Positions 7,709-20,632 of a stretch of 64,000 nucleotides of DNA are shown here, one piece after another. Under the pieces are notes generated by a model. It did no database searches, was not told the origin of the DNA, and saw nothing but the letters and a program-made list of their open reading frames with translations. The position numbers and the translations under genes were made by a program. Source of the DNA: Rhodobacter sp. SY28-1 (GTDB taxonomy: Bacteria; Pseudomonadota; Alphaproteobacteria; Rhodobacterales; Rhodobacteraceae); NCBI RefSeq assembly GCF_005222785.1, contig NZ_STGH01000002.1, positions 744,001 through 808,000 of the forward strand, given 5' to 3'. How positions within the stretch are numbered: the first letter of the stretch is position 1; the number at the start of each line of letters is the position of its first letter.

Positions 7709-8593
7709 CTACGCCCGGCCCTTCAACCCCAGCGTATGCTCCCGCAGCCAGGCCAGGAACCCCCGCGGGTTCCCCTCCCACTTCTTCAGCTCCTCCGCCG
7801 GGATCGGCTCACCGATCACGGGCCGGGTCGGCTTGAAGAGACACCGCTTGATCTCATACAGCAGCAACCCCTGCCGCACAGTATCTGACAGCTGGTTAGC
7901 GATCTGGAACATGCGAGAGTTCTGGCCGGGGAAGAAGATCGGCAGGATCGTCGCGCCGGTCGACTTGACGATCTTGTGGGTGAAGACGTTCCACTCGCCC
8001 TCGACCGCCGGACCCCACCAGCCTTCGCTCATCGCGACCTTGCCGGCCGGGAACAGGATGATGACCCCACCCGCCTTCAGGTGCGCCAGCGTCTCCTCCC
8101 GCATCTGCAGGCCAAGTTCGCGCGCGTTGTCCTCGTGCGGGAAGGGCACGGGGATCATGAACTCCTCGACCTCGGGGATGCCGGTCAGCAGGGACCGGGT
8201 CAGGATCTTGAAGTCCGATCGCACCCGGTTGACCATCTCGGCCAGGACCATCCCGTCCACCAGGCCCGAGGGGTGGTTCGACACCACGACCAGTGGCCCC
8301 GTCGACGGAATGCGGGCGATCTCCTCCGCCGGGGTCTCGATCCTTATGCCCATGTGGCGGATCGCCTTGGGCCAGAACGGCGCCCCGAACGGCGCACCCG
8401 ACTTTTCAAAGCTGCGGATCAGGCGCAGCAGCTGGACCTTGGCGGTCAGCCATTCGATGGCGCGGATTGTCCCGGCCTTCCAGGGGTTCTTGAAGGTGCC
8501 CGCATAGGACAGCCGACGCATGTCGTACTGACGGTCAACCCGACCGGCCGCAGACACGGGCGTCTCGGTGGCGATCTGGGTCTGTTCGGTCAC
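7709..8593 (-). CDS. Lysophospholipid acyltransferase (PlsC-like)
   Basis: 294 residues, membrane-associated acyltransferase of the 1-acyl-glycerol-3-phosphate type. The catalytic NHX4D motif is SNHPSGLVDG, and the acceptor-binding block ILFPAGKVAMSEGWWGPAVE follows. An N-terminal extension of about 60 residues is charged. The GTG at 8591-8593 is taken as start; no strong ribosome site is visible, and an internal ATG (YDMRRLSYAG) is an alternative. The real acceptor could be a lysophospholipid or an aminolipid; the sequence does not decide. Downstream lies a foreign-looking small gene. Confidence 0.87.
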   Translation of the reverse strand: MTEQTQIATETPVSAAGRVDRQYDMRRLSYAGTFKNPWKAGTIRAIEWLTAKVQLLRLIRSFEKSGAPFGAPFWPKAIRHMGIRIETPAEEIARIPSTGPLVVVSNHPSGLVDGMVLAEMVNRVRSDFKILTRSLLTGIPEVEEFMIPVPFPHEDNARELGLQMREETLAHLKAGGVIILFPAGKVAMSEGWWGPAVEGEWNVFTHKIVKSTGATILPIFFPGQNSRMFQIANQLSDTVRQGLLLYEIKRCLFKPTRPVIGEPIPAEELKKWEGNPRGFLAWLREHTLGLKGRA

Positions 8594-10246: not shown

Positions 10247-10671
10247 GCCTCACGTCCATGGCGAAGATAAAGCATCAGCGCGTCTGGAAAATGGTCATTC
10301 TGCACATGCAGCACAAGGGAGAGCGATATTCCCAGAATCGTGACCTTGCGGCGCGGCGGGAGCCGGTCGGTTTCCATCTGCCCCAGGTCGACCACCAGCC
10401 CGACCTCGGCCCCTGACACGGAAGGCGCGCGCAGGATGCCGACCCCCCGCGCCTCGATCATGCCTTGTAGGTCAGGGTTCGGACAGGAGGCCCACAGCGT
10501 TCCGCCCACCCCCTCCAGCCGCGTCAGGTCATCCGACACCAGCACCGCCCCGCGCGAGATCAGCTGCAACGCCAGCGCCGATTTGCCCGCTCCTGACGGG
10601 CCAAGGATCAACAGCCCCCGCCCGTCGACGGCGACGCAGGTGGCATGCAGCGTCTCGCTGGACTGGGTCAC
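10243..10671 (-). CDS. hprK: HPr kinase/phosphorylase, short form
   Basis: 142 residues comprising only the C-terminal catalytic domain of HprK; the N-terminal domain of the Firmicute enzyme is absent, as usual in alphaproteobacteria. Walker A is GPSGAGKSA (24-32), and the family signature [14 protein letters not shown] is present. Phosphorylates a serine of HPr (Ser46 of the gene at 8640) to adjust the relay. It starts with GTG at 10669-10671, seven bases after the chvG stop, and overlaps rapZ, so it belongs to the chvI-chvG operon or its readthrough. Confidence 0.94.
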
Positions 10672-10678
10672 ACGGGGA

Positions 10679-12373
10679 TCACACCGGCAGGCCGACGACG
10701 AACCGCGCGCCCAGCGGGTCCGAGGTCGGGTCGGCGGCCGTCGGGCGGATGTTCTCGGCCCAGATCACCCCGCCATGCGCCTCGACGATCTGCTTGGAAA
10801 TCGCCAGGCCAAGGCCCGAATGCTTGCCGAATTCCGACTGCGGCCGTTCGGAATAGAATCGTTTGAACACCTTGGTCAGCGCCTGCTCCGGGATGCCCGG
10901 TCCTGTATCTTCCACCACGATCAGCACCCGGTTTTCCCGCCGCCGGGCCCAGACGCGAACCGCGTCACCCTCCTCGCAGAAGGAGATCGCGTTGGTCACC
11001 AGGTTCACGAACACCTGCGCCAGCCGTGCCTCCAGCCCATGGATGGTGATCGGATCGGACGGAAGGTCGATGATGAAATCCACCCCCTTCTCGCCCGCCT
11101 GCTGCGACAGGTACTGGCAGAGATTGGACAGGGTCTTGAGAAGGTTGAACTCCTCCTCCTCCTCCTTCACCAGCTCCGAATCCAGCCGCGAGGCGTTCGA
11201 GATGTCGCTGACCAGCCGGTCCAGACGCCGCACGTCATGTTCGATCACGTCCAGCAGCTTGTCGCGGTGCTCGTCCTTCTTGACGAAGCGCAGCGAGCCC
11301 ACAGCCGACCGCAAGGACGCCAGCGGGTTCTTGATCTCATGCGCCACATCCGCCGCGAACTGTTCATTGGCGTCGATCCGGTCATACAGCGCCGACACCA
11401 TGCCCCGCATGGCCACGGAAAGCCGCCCGATCTCGTCCGGCCGCGCCGCAAGGTCGGGGATGCGCACCCGGGAGGGCGCCACCCGGCGCGAGTCGCGGTC
11501 ACGGCCCACTTCGGCAGCGGCAGCCAGGTCGGACAGGGGGTTCGAAATGGTCGAGGCCAGCATCAGGCTAAGGCTGATCGACAGCACCACCGCCAGCAGG
11601 AACATCTGCAGGACCTGCTCGCGCTCATACCGCACCAGCCGGTCGATCTCCTCGCTGTTCGAGGTGATGGCCACCACCCCCACCAGTTCATCGGCGATCA
11701 GGATGGGCGTGGCCACGGTAAAGTACATGTTGCCTTCGCCGTTCCGGGTGACGCGGGTCACCACCTCACCCGCGCGCGCGCCCTCAAAGGCCGCACGGGC
11801 GTTGTCGGCCGGATCGATCGTCTCGGTCCAGTCGCGGCGGCCCTGCCGGAACAGCACGGTCACCACATCCCAGACGCCTTCCAGGAAATCGGTCAGGATC
11901 GTCGGCTGGTCCGGGTCGGGCACCAGCGTCCCGGTCCCTTGCCCCACGCGCGAGGCCAGAAGCTGGCCGGTCGGATCGAAGACGAAGACTTCCAGCACCG
12001 GGTCCAGCTCGATGTCCTGCAACGGCGTACGGAAGTCGAACCCGGCGTTGCCCGGTCGCAGATGCGCCTCATAGACCGCTGCGATAAGCTCCGCCTGCCG
12101 CACCATGCCCAACTGGCGTTGCAGGGCCAGGCTGTCGCGGAACGGGTTCATGAACAGAACCCCGACCGCCAGCAGCACCAGCGCCATCAGGTTGAAGACG
12201 ATGATCTTCCGCGCCAGGGGCGATCGGTTCAGCCCGACAATGCTGCGTCCGCCCCGGCCTTCCTTCAGGCGCTCGACGGTCGCGTCCGGCGATACCCAGT
12301 CTTCGCCCAAAAGAACGTCGCCCGACCGCTTGGGCCGGACGTCATTGGGGTTAAGCCTGGGGGCCGAGGTCAT
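10679..12373 (-). CDS. chvG: Sensor histidine kinase ChvG (ExoS type)
   Basis: 564-residue inner-membrane kinase of the acid/envelope-stress system ChvG-ChvI. Cytoplasmic N-terminus, membrane helix 1 near 55-75, a periplasmic sensor of about 180 residues, helix 2 near 256-275, HAMP, then the H-box DVAHEIKNPLASLRSA with His345 and the ATPase motifs VEDTGPGIPE and GLGLAISKQIVE. It lies 12 bases after chvI. In rhizobia this pair controls exopolysaccharide, motility and acid response. Conserved coupling with hprK and rapZ suggests cross-talk between envelope stress and carbon status. Confidence 0.95.
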   Translation of the reverse strand: MTSAPRLNPNDVRPKRSGDVLLGEDWVSPDATVERLKEGRGGRSIVGLNRSPLARKIIVFNLMALVLLAVGVLFMNPFRDSLALQRQLGMVRQAELIAAVYEAHLRPGNAGFDFRTPLQDIELDPVLEVFVFDPTGQLLASRVGQGTGTLVPDPDQPTILTDFLEGVWDVVTVLFRQGRRDWTETIDPADNARAAFEGARAGEVVTRVTRNGEGNMYFTVATPILIADELVGVVAITSNSEEIDRLVRYEREQVLQMFLLAVVLSISLSLMLASTISNPLSDLAAAAEVGRDRDSRRVAPSRVRIPDLAARPDEIGRLSVAMRGMVSALYDRIDANEQFAADVAHEIKNPLASLRSAVGSLRFVKKDEHRDKLLDVIEHDVRRLDRLVSDISNASRLDSELVKEEEEEFNLLKTLSNLCQYLSQQAGEKGVDFIIDLPSDPITIHGLEARLAQVFVNLVTNAISFCEEGDAVRVWARRRENRVLIVVEDTGPGIPEQALTKVFKRFYSERPQSEFGKHSGLGLAISKQIVEAHGGVIWAENIRPTAADPTSDPLGARFVVGLPV

Positions 12374-16650: not shown

Positions 16651-18315
16651 ATGCCGCATGATGGACAAGCCATGGCCGACAGCCCCGTTCTTGCCGACCT
16701 CCCGGCCCTGACCGCCGCCGCCCTGCCCGAGATCGAGGCGCTGTTCACCCAGGCGCGCGACCAGCTGAAGGCCGCGGTGACGCTTGATGGCCGCCTGAAC
16801 GCCGCAGCGCTCGAAGCCCGGCAATTCCAGACCCATGCGCTGTCCTGGCTTGCCACCTATGTCGAGGCGCTGCGCCAGTTGCAGGCCTGGGCCGGACGCC
16901 TGTCCACCGCTGGCCAGTTCGGCGCGATGGAGGAACTGATCCTCCAGATCGGTTTCGGAGAATACCTCGCCCAGATCACCGGCGGCCTGCCGATGAGCCA
17001 GGGCGAAATCGCCCGCCTGGCCGATCTTGACCTGACCTGGACCCCTGGCCCCGCCGCAGCCCGGCTGATCGCCCACGGCAACACCGCCGCAGCCCGCGAC
17101 GTGCTGGTGGCCCTCATGCAGGACAACCACGGCCGCGCGACCTTTGGCGCGACCGGGCTGGACGAAGAACTGGAGATGATCCGCGACCAGTTCCGTCGCT
17201 ACTCGGACGAAAAGGTCATCCCCCGGGCGCAGGACTGGCACCTGAAAGATGAACTCATCCCGATGGAGGTCATCCAGGACCTCGCCGGAATGGGCGTCTT
17301 CGGCCTGACCATCCCCGAGGAATACGGCGGCTTCGGCCTCTCCAAGGCCTCGATGGTGGTCGTCAGCGAGGAACTTTCGCGCGGCTACATCGGCGTGGGT
17401 TCCCTTGGCACCCGCAGCGAGATTGCCGCCGAACTGATCCTCTGCGGCGGCACCGACGAGCAGAAGCAGAAGTGGCTCCCCGGCCTCGCCTCTGGCGAAA
17501 TCCTCCCCACCGCGGTCTTCACCGAACCGAACACCGGCTCCGACCTCGGCTCACTCCGCACCCGCGCCCGCCGCAAGGGTGACGACTGGGAGATCACCGG
17601 CAACAAGACCTGGATCACCCACGCCGCGCGGACCCATGTGATGACCGTCCTCGCGCGGTCTGTCGAAGGCACCACGGACTATCGCGGCCTGTCGATGTTC
17701 CTGGCCGAAAAGACGCCCAGCACTGACGAGACCCCCTTCGTGGACGAAGGCCTTTCGGGCGGCGAGATCGAGGTCCTCGGTTACCGCGGCATGAAGGAAT
17801 ACACCGTCAACTTCGACGGCTTCGCTGTGAAAGGCGAAAACCTTCTGGGTGGGGTCGAAGGCCAGGGCTTCAAGCAGCTGATGCAGACCTTTGAAAGCGC
17901 CCGCATCCAGACCGGGGCCCGCGCCATCGGCGTCGCGCAATCCGCGCTGGAAACCGGGATGCAATACGCGCTGGACCGCCAGCAGTTCGGCAAGCCGCTG
18001 ATCGCCTTCCCGCGCATCTCAGGCAAGCTGGCGATGATGGCCGTGGAAATCATGATCGCCCGCCAGCTCACCTACTTCTCTGCCTGGCAAAAGGACCACG
18101 GCCACCGCTGCGACCTTGAGGCGGGGATGGCCAAACTCCTCGGCGCCCGCGTCGCCTGGGCCGCCGCCGACAACGCCCTGCAAATCCACGGCGGCAACGG
18201 CTTTGCCCTCGAATACCGGATCAGCCGCATCCTCTGCGACGCCCGCATCCTGAACATCTTCGAAGGGGCCGCCGAGATTCAGGCCACGGTGATCGCGCGG
18301 CGGCTCTTGGAGTGA
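16651..18315 (+). CDS. mcd: (2S)-methylsuccinyl-CoA dehydrogenase
   Basis: FAD enzyme oxidising (2S)-methylsuccinyl-CoA to mesaconyl-CoA in the ethylmalonyl-CoA pathway for acetyl-CoA assimilation; electrons go to ETF. 554 residues from ATG 16651 (GGAG six bases upstream). The length is the key: an N-terminal extension of about 160 residues precedes the acyl-CoA dehydrogenase core and contains the block LQIGFGEYLAQITGG and the stretch ALSWLATYVEALRQLQ, which I recognise from Rhodobacter Mcd. The core shows TEPNTGSDLGSLRTRA and GGNGFALEYRISRI. Ccr and Ecm partners are not in the window. Confidence 0.92.
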   Translation: MPHDGQAMADSPVLADLPALTAAALPEIEALFTQARDQLKAAVTLDGRLNAAALEARQFQTHALSWLATYVEALRQLQAWAGRLSTAGQFGAMEELILQIGFGEYLAQITGGLPMSQGEIARLADLDLTWTPGPAAARLIAHGNTAAARDVLVALMQDNHGRATFGATGLDEELEMIRDQFRRYSDEKVIPRAQDWHLKDELIPMEVIQDLAGMGVFGLTIPEEYGGFGLSKASMVVVSEELSRGYIGVGSLGTRSEIAAELILCGGTDEQKQKWLPGLASGEILPTAVFTEPNTGSDLGSLRTRARRKGDDWEITGNKTWITHAARTHVMTVLARSVEGTTDYRGLSMFLAEKTPSTDETPFVDEGLSGGEIEVLGYRGMKEYTVNFDGFAVKGENLLGGVEGQGFKQLMQTFESARIQTGARAIGVAQSALETGMQYALDRQQFGKPLIAFPRISGKLAMMAVEIMIARQLTYFSAWQKDHGHRCDLEAGMAKLLGARVAWAAADNALQIHGGNGFALEYRISRILCDARILNIFEGAAEIQATVIARRLLE

Positions 18316-18380
18316 ACCCACGCGACGATTGAAGTTTCATCCCCTTTCCGGCAGTCTGAGCGTATTCACTGACGTCGGAG

Positions 18381-20531
18381 ATGAAATTGTCCGAACGCTT
18401 TGCCGACCTACCGAGAGATGTGCGCCGAAGGAAGCTGGAAGCGGCCCGGCTGAAGCTGGATTGGGATGCGAAGGATGGACCGCTAGGCGGGGTGATCCTA
18501 CATTTGAGGTACAGAGCACGAGCCGCTCGGCGCAACGGTCAAATTTTTCTTTGGATGCTTGTTGCCACCGTCGTTCTGGGGCTTGGCTTCTACCTTGGCT
18601 TGCCCCTCGTTCAAGGCTGGTTCGATGGACGCCAACAAGCTCTTGAAGACACCTTAAAGGCAATAGAGAATCGAAAACAGGAGCTGGACGCCGACAGGAG
18701 GACACTCATTCTTGGAGGAGAGCCGAAGGAAGGACTAGAATCACGGGGTCTGCAAAATTTACTAAAGGATACGTTTCTTTCCGTGTCGACAGACACATTT
18801 GCACTATTGTCCGAACCAATCGTTTTTGGTGGGCAGCTATTTGTGTTTGGTGAGGGTGCAGTTGCTCTTACCTTGGATAGGGAAAGCAACAGCTTCAAAA
18901 GAACATTAATTGCGGGAACTGGGTACCTCCGGAATCCCATCATCTACAAAGAGATGCTTTATGTTTTTGACGACGGGGGTAACGCACATAGATTGAGAAC
19001 GAATGAGTCTTCGTTTGAGATTATGCCAACGAGCCTACTCGACTCGGTTGTCGCTTCAATTGTGTATTCTGATCAACTTTTCCTATTTGATACCGAGGGG
19101 AACGTGGCCCGGCTAAGTGCTGACAACACCCGCTTCGAGCAATTTGATGCAAACTTAGGACGTGGGCTTCGGCAGCCGATAGTTTTTGAAGGAGACTTGT
19201 ATGTATTTGGTTGGGGCGGTCAGGCCTTTCGGTTGAAGCCTGGCGACAATCGTTTCGAAGTAGTCGCAACAGGTACAGGCGATACCCTCGTTTCCCCAAC
19301 AATTCACGGCGAAAGGCTCTATGTACTCAGCTATGGTGGTTCGGTGTATCGTCTCGCGGGCGACCAGACAGAATTCGAGATGATCGCGACAGTCGCAGGA
19401 TACTCTCTGTCAGAGGCAATCAGCTACGACAAGCATCTCTTTGTTTTTGGCGATCGCGGCTTGGTGCTTAAGCTGAATGCAGACAGCGACGAACTCAAGA
19501 TAATTCCAACTGGAACTGACAGTACCTTGGGAAACGCTTTGATCCATGGCACGGCGCTTTGGGTATTTGGAGAAGGGAATGAGGGCGGAATTGCTTTTCG
19601 AATTTCTTCTAAGAGTTCGCAGTTTGTGGCTGTTCCGATCGAAGTCTCCCTCATTTCCGCAAATAGAGTAGCTCGTGGCGACGACCTCTTTGTCTTTGGA
19701 GGCGACGGACAGGTTGCAAGACTGTCTGCCGACGGTTCCAGGTTTGAGTCTGTCGCAACTGACACGAACTCTTTTCTTACTGCCGCTATCCTAACTAACG
19801 GTGAGATTTTTATTTTTGGTAGTGACGGAGCGGCTCTTACTCCGACAAACAGTCTTTCAATAAATGCTAGTAAGTTACCGGTAGGATCAGACGACGAAAG
19901 TCAGAGTGCTGTAAGACAGTTCTTTGCCAATGGAATTCCAGAAATTGTTCGGGATCGAGGTCCCATTTCAGAGATCTATAGTAGGCTCAGCTTTTTAGAG
20001 TCAGAGCGCGTAGGCCTTAACACAATTGAAAGTCGTACAAGCGATCAACTTCGAGCTGTTGTGTTGAATCCTTTGCAATATCTGCGAGAACGAAAACTGT
20101 TAGAGCTTAGGGGTTTTCTTGACGTCTGTAGAGGATTGCCACCATCCCTCGACCTTACCGCGGCCTGCATAACGGCGTGGCAGTCGGAGCAGGTCCAAGG
20201 ACAGAAATCCTGGTGGGAGACGCTTGCAGCACAGGTTCCCCCCGGCATCCTCTTGCTCTTCCTCCTCGCCACGCTCGGCGGGCTCTACCGTTACAATGTC
20301 CGCCTCGCCAGCTTCCACGACTCCCGGGCGGATGCGCTGCAGCTCCTTTCGCAAAGTCGCACCCCGCAGGAACTCCGCGACATTCTCGCCAAAACTCCGG
20401 GCGAAGCCGTCAACCTCGCCACCCTCTTCCTTGCCGCCGACAAGGTCGAGATGGGCACCATCAAGGCTAAGCTCGGCCAGGCAGAGATCGAGCTGGCCAA
20501 GGCCCTCGGAGCTGACAAGTCGGAGGGATGA
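18381..20531 (+). CDS. Membrane-anchored repeat protein, predicted periplasmic beta-propeller
   Basis: 716 residues, family not recognised. Layout: basic cytoplasmic N-terminus (1-53), membrane helix 55-77, short coiled coil (about 84-108), then nine copies of a 40-residue unit starting near 147, 187, 227, 267, 307, 347, 387, 430 and 470, each with a hydrophobic strand, then LFVFG-like, then a turn and xRL-x-F. This is a propeller-type repeat. A helical linker, a second membrane helix near 633-652 and a cytoplasmic tail follow. The middle (18.65-20.2 kb) is much richer in A and T than both ends. GGAG abuts the ATG; a TTG at 18387, six bases from GGAG, may be the true start. Confidence 0.85.
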   Translation: MKLSERFADLPRDVRRRKLEAARLKLDWDAKDGPLGGVILHLRYRARAARRNGQIFLWMLVATVVLGLGFYLGLPLVQGWFDGRQQALEDTLKAIENRKQELDADRRTLILGGEPKEGLESRGLQNLLKDTFLSVSTDTFALLSEPIVFGGQLFVFGEGAVALTLDRESNSFKRTLIAGTGYLRNPIIYKEMLYVFDDGGNAHRLRTNESSFEIMPTSLLDSVVASIVYSDQLFLFDTEGNVARLSADNTRFEQFDANLGRGLRQPIVFEGDLYVFGWGGQAFRLKPGDNRFEVVATGTGDTLVSPTIHGERLYVLSYGGSVYRLAGDQTEFEMIATVAGYSLSEAISYDKHLFVFGDRGLVLKLNADSDELKIIPTGTDSTLGNALIHGTALWVFGEGNEGGIAFRISSKSSQFVAVPIEVSLISANRVARGDDLFVFGGDGQVARLSADGSRFESVATDTNSFLTAAILTNGEIFIFGSDGAALTPTNSLSINASKLPVGSDDESQSAVRQFFANGIPEIVRDRGPISEIYSRLSFLESERVGLNTIESRTSDQLRAVVLNPLQYLRERKLLELRGFLDVCRGLPPSLDLTAACITAWQSEQVQGQKSWWETLAAQVPPGILLLFLLATLGGLYRYNVRLASFHDSRADALQLLSQSRTPQELRDILAKTPGEAVNLATLFLAADKVEMGTIKAKLGQAEIELAKALGADKSEG

Positions 20532-20632
20532 TCGCCCGGCGCCTTCTGGTTTGACCGCTTGCTTTGGTCTTGTCGCGCGGTCAAACTGGGCCATATAGCC
20601 CAAAGTTGACAGTGTAAAGACCAGAGCTTCCC

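Follow-up and report, generated by a model that had tools for sequence, protein, structure and literature searches.

The locus at positions 18381–20531 of the window (the whole stretch of 64,000 nucleotides analysed here) encodes a 716-residue protein with a repeat domain between two membrane helices, and raises the question of whether such a protein is a receptor, a scaffold, a membrane effector, or a short-lived product of repeat amplification. A sequence-only reading had proposed a nine-bladed propeller of an unrecognised family, perhaps a sensor or scaffold joining an outer ligand to a cytoplasmic tail. Our analysis partly supports that interpretation: the propeller, its blade count, and its topology stand as predictions, and the lack of a named family is supported as well. 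The features of the locus, in order, are:

18289–18315, + strand: 3′ end of the upstream acyl-CoA dehydrogenase gene, left copy of a duplicated tail (gene named by Pfam)
18381–20531, + strand: gene for a predicted membrane-anchored nine-bladed propeller, 716 aa (open reading frame with ATG start, repeats, AlphaFold model)
18381–18533, + strand: basic cytoplasmic N-terminus, about residues 1–51 (charge bias, alignment)
18534–18713, + strand: membrane helix 1 continuing as a periplasmic stalk helix, residues 52–111 (hydropathy, model)
18771–19847, + strand: predicted nine-bladed propeller, residues 131–489 (AlphaFold model, structure comparison)
19851–20225, + strand: returning helical stalk, residues 491–615, with Cys pair 583/596 (model)
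20142–20144, + strand: codon 588, the sharpest break in third-codon GC (third-codon GC)
20220–20288, + strand: membrane helix 2, residues about 614–636, the best-conserved part (hydropathy, identity, invariant columns)
20289–20528, + strand: cytoplasmic tail, residues about 637–716, with an LAADKVEFGK-like motif (alignments; low model confidence)
20528–20554, + strand: acyl-CoA dehydrogenase 3′ end, right copy, followed by native spacer (27-mer comparison)

In the start region (18377–18389), GGAG lies immediately before the ATG at 18381; a TTG at 18387 is better spaced and may be the true start.

The repeats behave as the sequence-only reading had described them, namely as nine 40-residue units between two helices. 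Self-comparison of the window protein over lags 25–109 gives its strongest signals at lag 40 (z 5.2) and lag 80 (z 4.7), with no other lag above z 1.7, and a repeat model finds nine stretches over residues 130–480, seven of 36–38 residues and two partial (28 and 19). The register proposed earlier, with starts at 147, 187, and onward to 470, aligns the copies well. AlphaFold, given 15 family rows, returns a model with mean pLDDT 79 and pTM 0.64, in which blocks of ten propeller residues score pLDDT 80–93. This model predicts nine four-stranded blades, with strand 131–134 completing the last blade (closure read from strand order). Radial four-stranded blades and a closed ring, the marks of a beta-propeller, are both present in the model. 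The model also predicts a single helix, residues 36–111, that passes through membrane helix 1, and then the returning helical stalk and helix 2; the tail is poorly predicted. Comparison with the PDB returned 1,440 matches at E ≤0.001, with propellers topmost. Of the 50 rows listed, the designed proteins Cake9 and Cake10 (PDB 6tjh, 6tji) have the highest target-normalised TM-score (0.80); they also match the window protein in sequence (E about 1e-6). BamB is among the best structural folds. The blade count is a prediction and provisional because Scone, a nine-repeat design, folded with eight blades (PMC8458387). The overall picture is of a predicted nine-bladed propeller, closed into a ring and carried outside the cytoplasm on a helical stalk.

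Hydropathy and charge point to the same topology. Kyte-Doolittle windows above 1.6 cover residues 52–79 and 614–635, with one extra window at residues 147–165, within the first blade. Charge bias places both the N-terminal and the C-terminal end of the window protein inside. Among relatives, the both-ends-inside topology is indicated at helix 1 in nine of ten sequences (L017 being even) and at helix 2 in 14 of 14, so that the earlier placement of the repeats outside and both ends inside is upheld as a prediction. The cysteine pair of the stalk, just before helix 2, is kept in 13/14 sequences, and L028 is without both cysteines; presence in 13 and joint loss in the remaining one fit a periplasmic disulphide.

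No curated family claims the protein, which the earlier reading did not recognise either. Specifically, no Pfam, NCBIfam, PHROGs, or PADLOC model scores above its cut-off for the window protein. The BamB models stay far below theirs (TIGR03300, 24.2 bits against 285.2, E 1.2e-5; PRK11138, 19.3 bits against 423), and PQQ_2 (PF13360) reaches 18 bits with the whole protein (E 0.0024) and 22 bits with the propeller alone (E 0.00015), against a cut-off of 27.6. PSII_BNR (PF14870, YCF48-type) gives no hit on the window protein at E ≤1; the same model passes the Pfam cut-off in the propeller part of L017, L027, L028, and L067, and matches to phrog_8700 are confined to the repeat-bearing stretches of L017 and L027. 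Pfam finds no SLATT or DUF4231 match as far as E 5 with either the N-terminal or the C-terminal alignment (six sequences apiece), no NTPase in either half of the protein, and no recognisable signalling domain in the tail. The anti-phage models of PADLOC-DB 2.0.0 give no match to the window protein and weak ones (E 0.003 or worse) in three of eight other proteins. The full-length window protein has no matches in the genome contigs, viral contigs, plasmids, or phages searched, and matches only itself in the source genome (1 match). Plasmids searched with the C-terminus of a relative, and phages searched with the window protein and with L023, yielded nothing.

Relatives emerge when the search is made with the C-terminal part. 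A full-length search of 148 related genomes found, besides the source genome, only L002/L004 (one genome, two ends only) and L003; the C-terminal part is needed because unrelated propellers hide the full-length relationship. The last of these hits, L003 in genome G131, was rejected as a family member, since by eye it resembles a common type of secreted BNR protein and lacks the frame. The C-terminal quarter of the protein found its module in 7/394 sampled genomes of the taxonomic family, and alignments of this part found it in 7/292 of the order, 5/337 of the class, and 2/349 of the phylum. These frequencies (0.6–2.4%) come from overlapping samples, include the source genome in every case, and take in a few distant relatives. 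The alignments also yielded 13 named loci from 56 stretches matching a pattern. Both frame ends surround a propeller or propeller pieces in 12 of the 13, and L029 (Aliamphritea, a gammaproteobacterium) has the second-helix motif only. Our counts of 14 genomes comprise the 12 named loci, the window, and L067; L072 (genome G748), which by eye has both frame ends around another propeller and is likely a further full member, is excluded from them. Named carriers are Zongyanglinia, a MAG, Roseobacter SK209-2-6, Roseovarius albus, Leisingera, Candidatus Rhodobacter lobularis, Nitratireductor, Rhodophyticola, Boseongicola, Shimia, Roseibium, and Mangrovicoccus. By these sequence matches, the gene belongs to a rare alphaproteobacterial family carried by at least thirteen further alphaproteobacterial genomes.

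Judged by eye, a wider circle surrounds this family: L015, L035, and L076 are distant relatives with the second-helix motif and no recognisable propeller, and L069 and L073–L075 have a diverged frame with a propeller-like middle. L015 and L035 carry additional hydrophobic helices, again by eye. In L027, a second, different propeller gene (L027:14907–17039), related to that of L015, is encoded on the opposite strand some 5 kb away from the first; its surroundings by eye hold small phage-like genes.

Comparison of the members separates a conserved frame from a variable outer part. Averaged over the 28 pairs of eight full-length proteins, identity reaches 0.62 in helix 2, 0.41 in helix 1, 0.38 in the tail, and 0.30 in the N-terminus; for the outer parts it is 0.26 (propeller), 0.24 (returning stalk), and 0.22 (first stalk helix), so across genera both stalk parts are no better conserved than the propeller. 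The helix 2 region has 18 invariant columns in 13 aligned C-termini. By the alignments, the family frame is old and constrained. The repeat period differs between members: 40 in the window protein and L028, 45 in L017, 41 in L020, 43 in L023, and 42/47 in L027, with no clear period in L024 and L026.

The blades themselves are more closely related within proteins than between them. The nearest blade lies within the same protein for 58/58 blades by global alignment and for 57/58 by a register-free local comparison. These tests used stretches of at least 32 residues (7/9 in the window protein) from nine proteins or pieces with clear repeats, namely the window protein, L017, L020, L023, L027, a second Roseibium gene, and pieces of L019, L021, and L022. 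Left out were four members with weak repeats (L024, L025, L026, and L028), L018 for its shortness, L067, and two other pieces. Since blades are nearest within their own protein, the propellers were amplified separately in each lineage, a general pattern described by Pereira and Lupas 2022 (PMC9218822). At the DNA level, blades are 0.81 identical in L020 (four blades), 0.80 in L023 (six), and 0.44 in the window gene (five), which argues that amplification in the window gene is older than in L020 and L023. Mean blade identity in protein is 0.61 in L020, 0.68 in L023, 0.70 in L021 (three blades), and 0.31 in the window protein (seven blades), the last being below the >60% blade identity criterion of Pereira and Lupas (a mean, not a median, is compared here). 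The window propeller is only moderately repetitive.

The base composition of the window gene bears on a further earlier claim, that an AT-rich middle marks a blade domain brought in from elsewhere. Third-codon GC is 0.57–0.65 in the first 80 codons, 0.30–0.62 over about codons 80–590, and about 0.8 beyond, against 0.85–0.89 in five neighbouring genes. The window gene is a compositional mosaic. The AT-rich middle is therefore real by third-codon GC, but its edges are not those of the propeller: the stretch takes in the returning stalk, and the sharpest break, a step of 0.33, falls at codon 588, just before helix 2. The largest such step in 24 other open reading frames of the window (at least 300 codons, third-codon GC >0.75; some possibly not genes) is 0.24. 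The position of the break just before membrane helix 2 indicates that the returning stalk goes with the propeller. Among seven other full-length genes compared, helix 2 and tail are GC-richer than the propeller in L020 and L027 (third-codon GC 0.72 versus 0.54 and 0.48), and are not more than 0.1 richer in the other five.

One member shows exchange between frames. The frame tree places L018 beside L020 with support 0.99, whereas the propeller piece of L018 finds its match in L022 (z 18 and 15) and none in L020 (z −0.8); with frame and propeller assigned to conflicting relatives, L018 offers one clear case of exchange. The idea of a blade domain from elsewhere is upheld insofar as propellers differ between relatives and L018 shows this conflict; it needs amending insofar as the returning stalk of the window gene goes with the propeller.

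The closest pair, L024 and L025 (93% identical), gives a view of recent change. The ratio of sense-changing to silent codons is 40:81 for the propeller, 2:21 for the returning stalk, and 1:14 for helix 2 with the tail; pooled, the last two give 3:35, from which the propeller differs at p 0.002 in this one pair. Set against silent change, the propeller evolves at five to seven times the rate of these two parts. Fast change in this pair is not confined to the propeller, since the N-terminus with helix 1 (6:5) and the first stalk helix (5:10) keep pace with it. In an AlphaFold model of L024 (mean pLDDT 67, weak at residues 276–416), changes in the confident blades are in excess in loops (18/141 against 7/142 positions, p 0.02); we set this loop excess aside as a sign of recognition, since any propeller would show the same. 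Copies are intact in 10/14 cases and broken in 4/14, all within the propeller. L018 and L019 are broken by frameshifts, for which sequencing error is possible, L021 by an IS110-family transposase, and L022 by a DDE_3-type transposase.

The window gene occupies exactly the junction between an acyl-CoA dehydrogenase gene and an epimerase gene. A search of 31 other members of the genus gave 24 congeneric loci, and in 21 of these the two genes have their aligned ends 65–108 bases apart; two of the other three have a damaged epimerase reading, and one shows no dehydrogenase in a short locus. No propeller match occurs in any of the 24. In the window, a second copy of the final 27 bases of the dehydrogenase gene begins at 20528, where it overlaps the stop codon of the propeller gene and is followed by the native spacer of the congeners. 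The two tail copies are 20/27 identical, a level reached in 0/20,000 shuffles, and the 27-mer is matched at ≥20 positions at only two places in the 64 kb window. A generic direct-repeat scan, as set, missed the duplication, which scored 22 where shuffles reached 28, and neither a 45-base scan nor a 14-residue peptide scan listed the right copy. Taken together, the junction comparisons make the window gene a horizontal single-gene insertion that is missing from the congeners.

The same dehydrogenase recurs at 5/15 family loci (window, L018, L020, L022, and L026). In L018, L022, and L026 the family gene lies beside it (reversed in L026), and in L020 the dehydrogenase is about 8 kb away. Extra copies of the dehydrogenase tail number one in the window, two in L018 (upstream of its gene), and one in L100; L022 and L026 have no same-strand copy at 27/45, except for one match about 8 kb away in L026. 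L100 is the one with a tail copy among 29 other genera examined, whose dehydrogenase flanks (at most 1.5 kb) contain no propeller or frame match. The gene content downstream of the dehydrogenase falls into few groups. A recurrent recombination site and transfer with the dehydrogenase gene as a homology arm both fit these observations, and homologous recombination with an illegitimate right end fits the insertion as well as an integrase-type mechanism would. No conserved operon partner was found among the 15 loci. Other gene groups at three or more loci are antisense reading frames of the dehydrogenase and two groups from L024, L025, and one further locus; the remaining neighbour groups are pairs, mostly from a collinear stretch common to the window and L026.

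Several details of these neighbourhoods deserve record. In L100 (genome G056), the extra dehydrogenase 3′ end lies, by eye, about 49 bases after the dehydrogenase match and before a CMD-like gene, the same setting as in L018, with no propeller or frame match in the 1.5 kb flanks; the neighbour gene in L018 is CMD by Pfam (PF02627). Between three dehydrogenase 3′-end copies in L018 (8964–9094), two short, similar palindromes are visible by eye, perhaps duplicated terminators. In Shimia (L026:7647–8297), a Hint-domain gene (PF13403) also sits in the dehydrogenase-epimerase interval, beside the reversed propeller gene. In Roseobacter SK209-2-6 (L019), a 225-base direct repeat (7760–7984 and 10599–10823) flanks the broken propeller gene, its right copy falling in a NusG-like gene. 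The direct-repeat scan of L017 scored 27, just above its shuffles (26).

The combination of one frame with different propellers suggests the pattern of a fast-changing recognition receptor. Our tentative reading, a real possibility that stops short of an even chance, is that the family is an envelope receptor that spreads horizontally, keeps its membrane part conserved, rebuilds the head that binds the ligand, and serves conflict or self-recognition. SLATT and DUF4231 proteins have a basic start, two helices, and a short helical tail, and the resemblance of this plan to the basic start, helix, helix, and short helical tail seen here raises another possibility, a two-helix membrane effector whose helices form a pore once the propeller binds its target. 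The distant relatives L015, L035, and L076, in which no propeller is seen by eye beside the second-helix motif, would suit such an effector, but neither half of the protein gives a SLATT or DUF4231 Pfam match at E up to 5 and no partner gene recurs nearby, and we consider this explanation very improbable.

The strongest competing explanation is a BamB-like scaffold in the envelope, in which the propeller, as in BamB or YCF48, would dock clients for envelope assembly or maturation and the helices would only anchor it. It draws on the sub-cut-off matches to TIGR03300 and PQQ_2, on BamB being among the best folds, and on PSII_BNR passing the Pfam cut-off in L017, L027, L028, and L067. Set against these are the scores themselves (24 of 285 bits for TIGR03300, 18–22 of 27.6 for PQQ_2), a C-terminal module found in only 0.6–2.4% of sampled genomes, the 24 congeneric loci without the gene, propellers that are non-orthologous between relatives, and broken copies; we judge it rather unlikely. 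Breakage is what a young, short-lived gene would show, one whose blades amplify, find no lasting use, and decay: 4/14 copies are broken, two by frameshift and two by transposon, and many disrupted repetitive propellers are reported elsewhere (PMC9218822). Such a gene would not be expected to keep 18 invariant columns in 13 C-termini, a Cys pair in 13/14 sequences, a 3:35 ratio of sense-changing to silent codons in the returning stalk, helix 2, and tail of L024/L025, and 10/14 intact copies, and we consider this explanation improbable. The evolution of the family, as read from its sequences, favours a recognition receptor over a housekeeping scaffold.

As a recognition receptor, the protein would work as follows. 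It would sit in the inner membrane with both ends in the cytoplasm, two long helices holding the propeller in the periplasm. The propellers are repeatedly rebuilt, each by amplification of a single blade, and sometimes exchanged between frames, and single family genes move horizontally and often break. The propeller face might bind a fast-changing envelope partner, such as a part of a phage or competitor, a surface molecule, or a kin marker; binding could be relayed through the stalk and helix 2 to the cytoplasmic tail, which may dock on a common host partner; and the outcome would presumably serve conflict or self-recognition. Because a constrained frame recurs in many genera with unrelated propellers, a selected function can be sought in one place: the conserved helix 2 and tail may meet a common partner, and the head something that changes.

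Among known systems, BamB and other PQQ-type propellers share with the window protein a common fold type, a periplasmic location (predicted here), and blades of about 40 residues. BamB is an eight-bladed lipoprotein without membrane helices, and the window protein is unlike it in its nine predicted blades, its two membrane helices (by hydropathy and model), and its cytoplasmic tail. The likeness to Cake9 and Cake10 lies in the fold and the repeat of about 40 residues; the Cake designs are artificial and soluble. Fungal HET-type NLRs are cytoplasmic NTPases. Those with WD40 repeats of high internal conservation resemble the window family in repeat instability and high internal identity of a recognition propeller that is tied to a conserved remainder; the window family differs in its membrane frame and in having no NTPase Pfam match. 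That the family is a bacterial envelope counterpart of these hypervariable propeller receptors, with a conserved two-helix frame that alphaproteobacteria load with continually re-amplified propellers, swapped between frames and spread one gene at a time, for use against phages, competitors, or non-kin, is a further possibility that we regard as doubtful. Against the receptor reading in general stand the lack of a defence-model match to the window protein and of a conserved neighbour, the moderate repetitiveness of the window propeller, the dependence of the rate comparison on one pair with a fast N-terminal part, the stalk parts being conserved no better than the propeller across genera, and the tail having no recognisable signalling domain. 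Blade homogeneity also arises in propellers without a known immune role (PMC9218822).

The nearest precedent is the set of repetitive propellers of Pereira and Lupas (PMC9218822), which in the sections available are constantly amplified afresh, with immunity or self-recognition raised as a possible reason. The likeness to that set, within the same sections, lies in blade similarity within proteins, independent amplification, and frequent disrupted copies. Those sections name one membrane protein, a moth DPPY, describe no shared membrane frame, and do not contain the word 'transmembrane'. The propeller fold and blade amplification are already known; the new element is that one conserved transmembrane frame serves again and again under propellers that differ and were amplified independently, an arrangement of which we found no description in the open-licence literature searched. 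The window family is unlike the Pereira and Lupas set in that its two-helix frame persists across genera under a rebuilt propeller.
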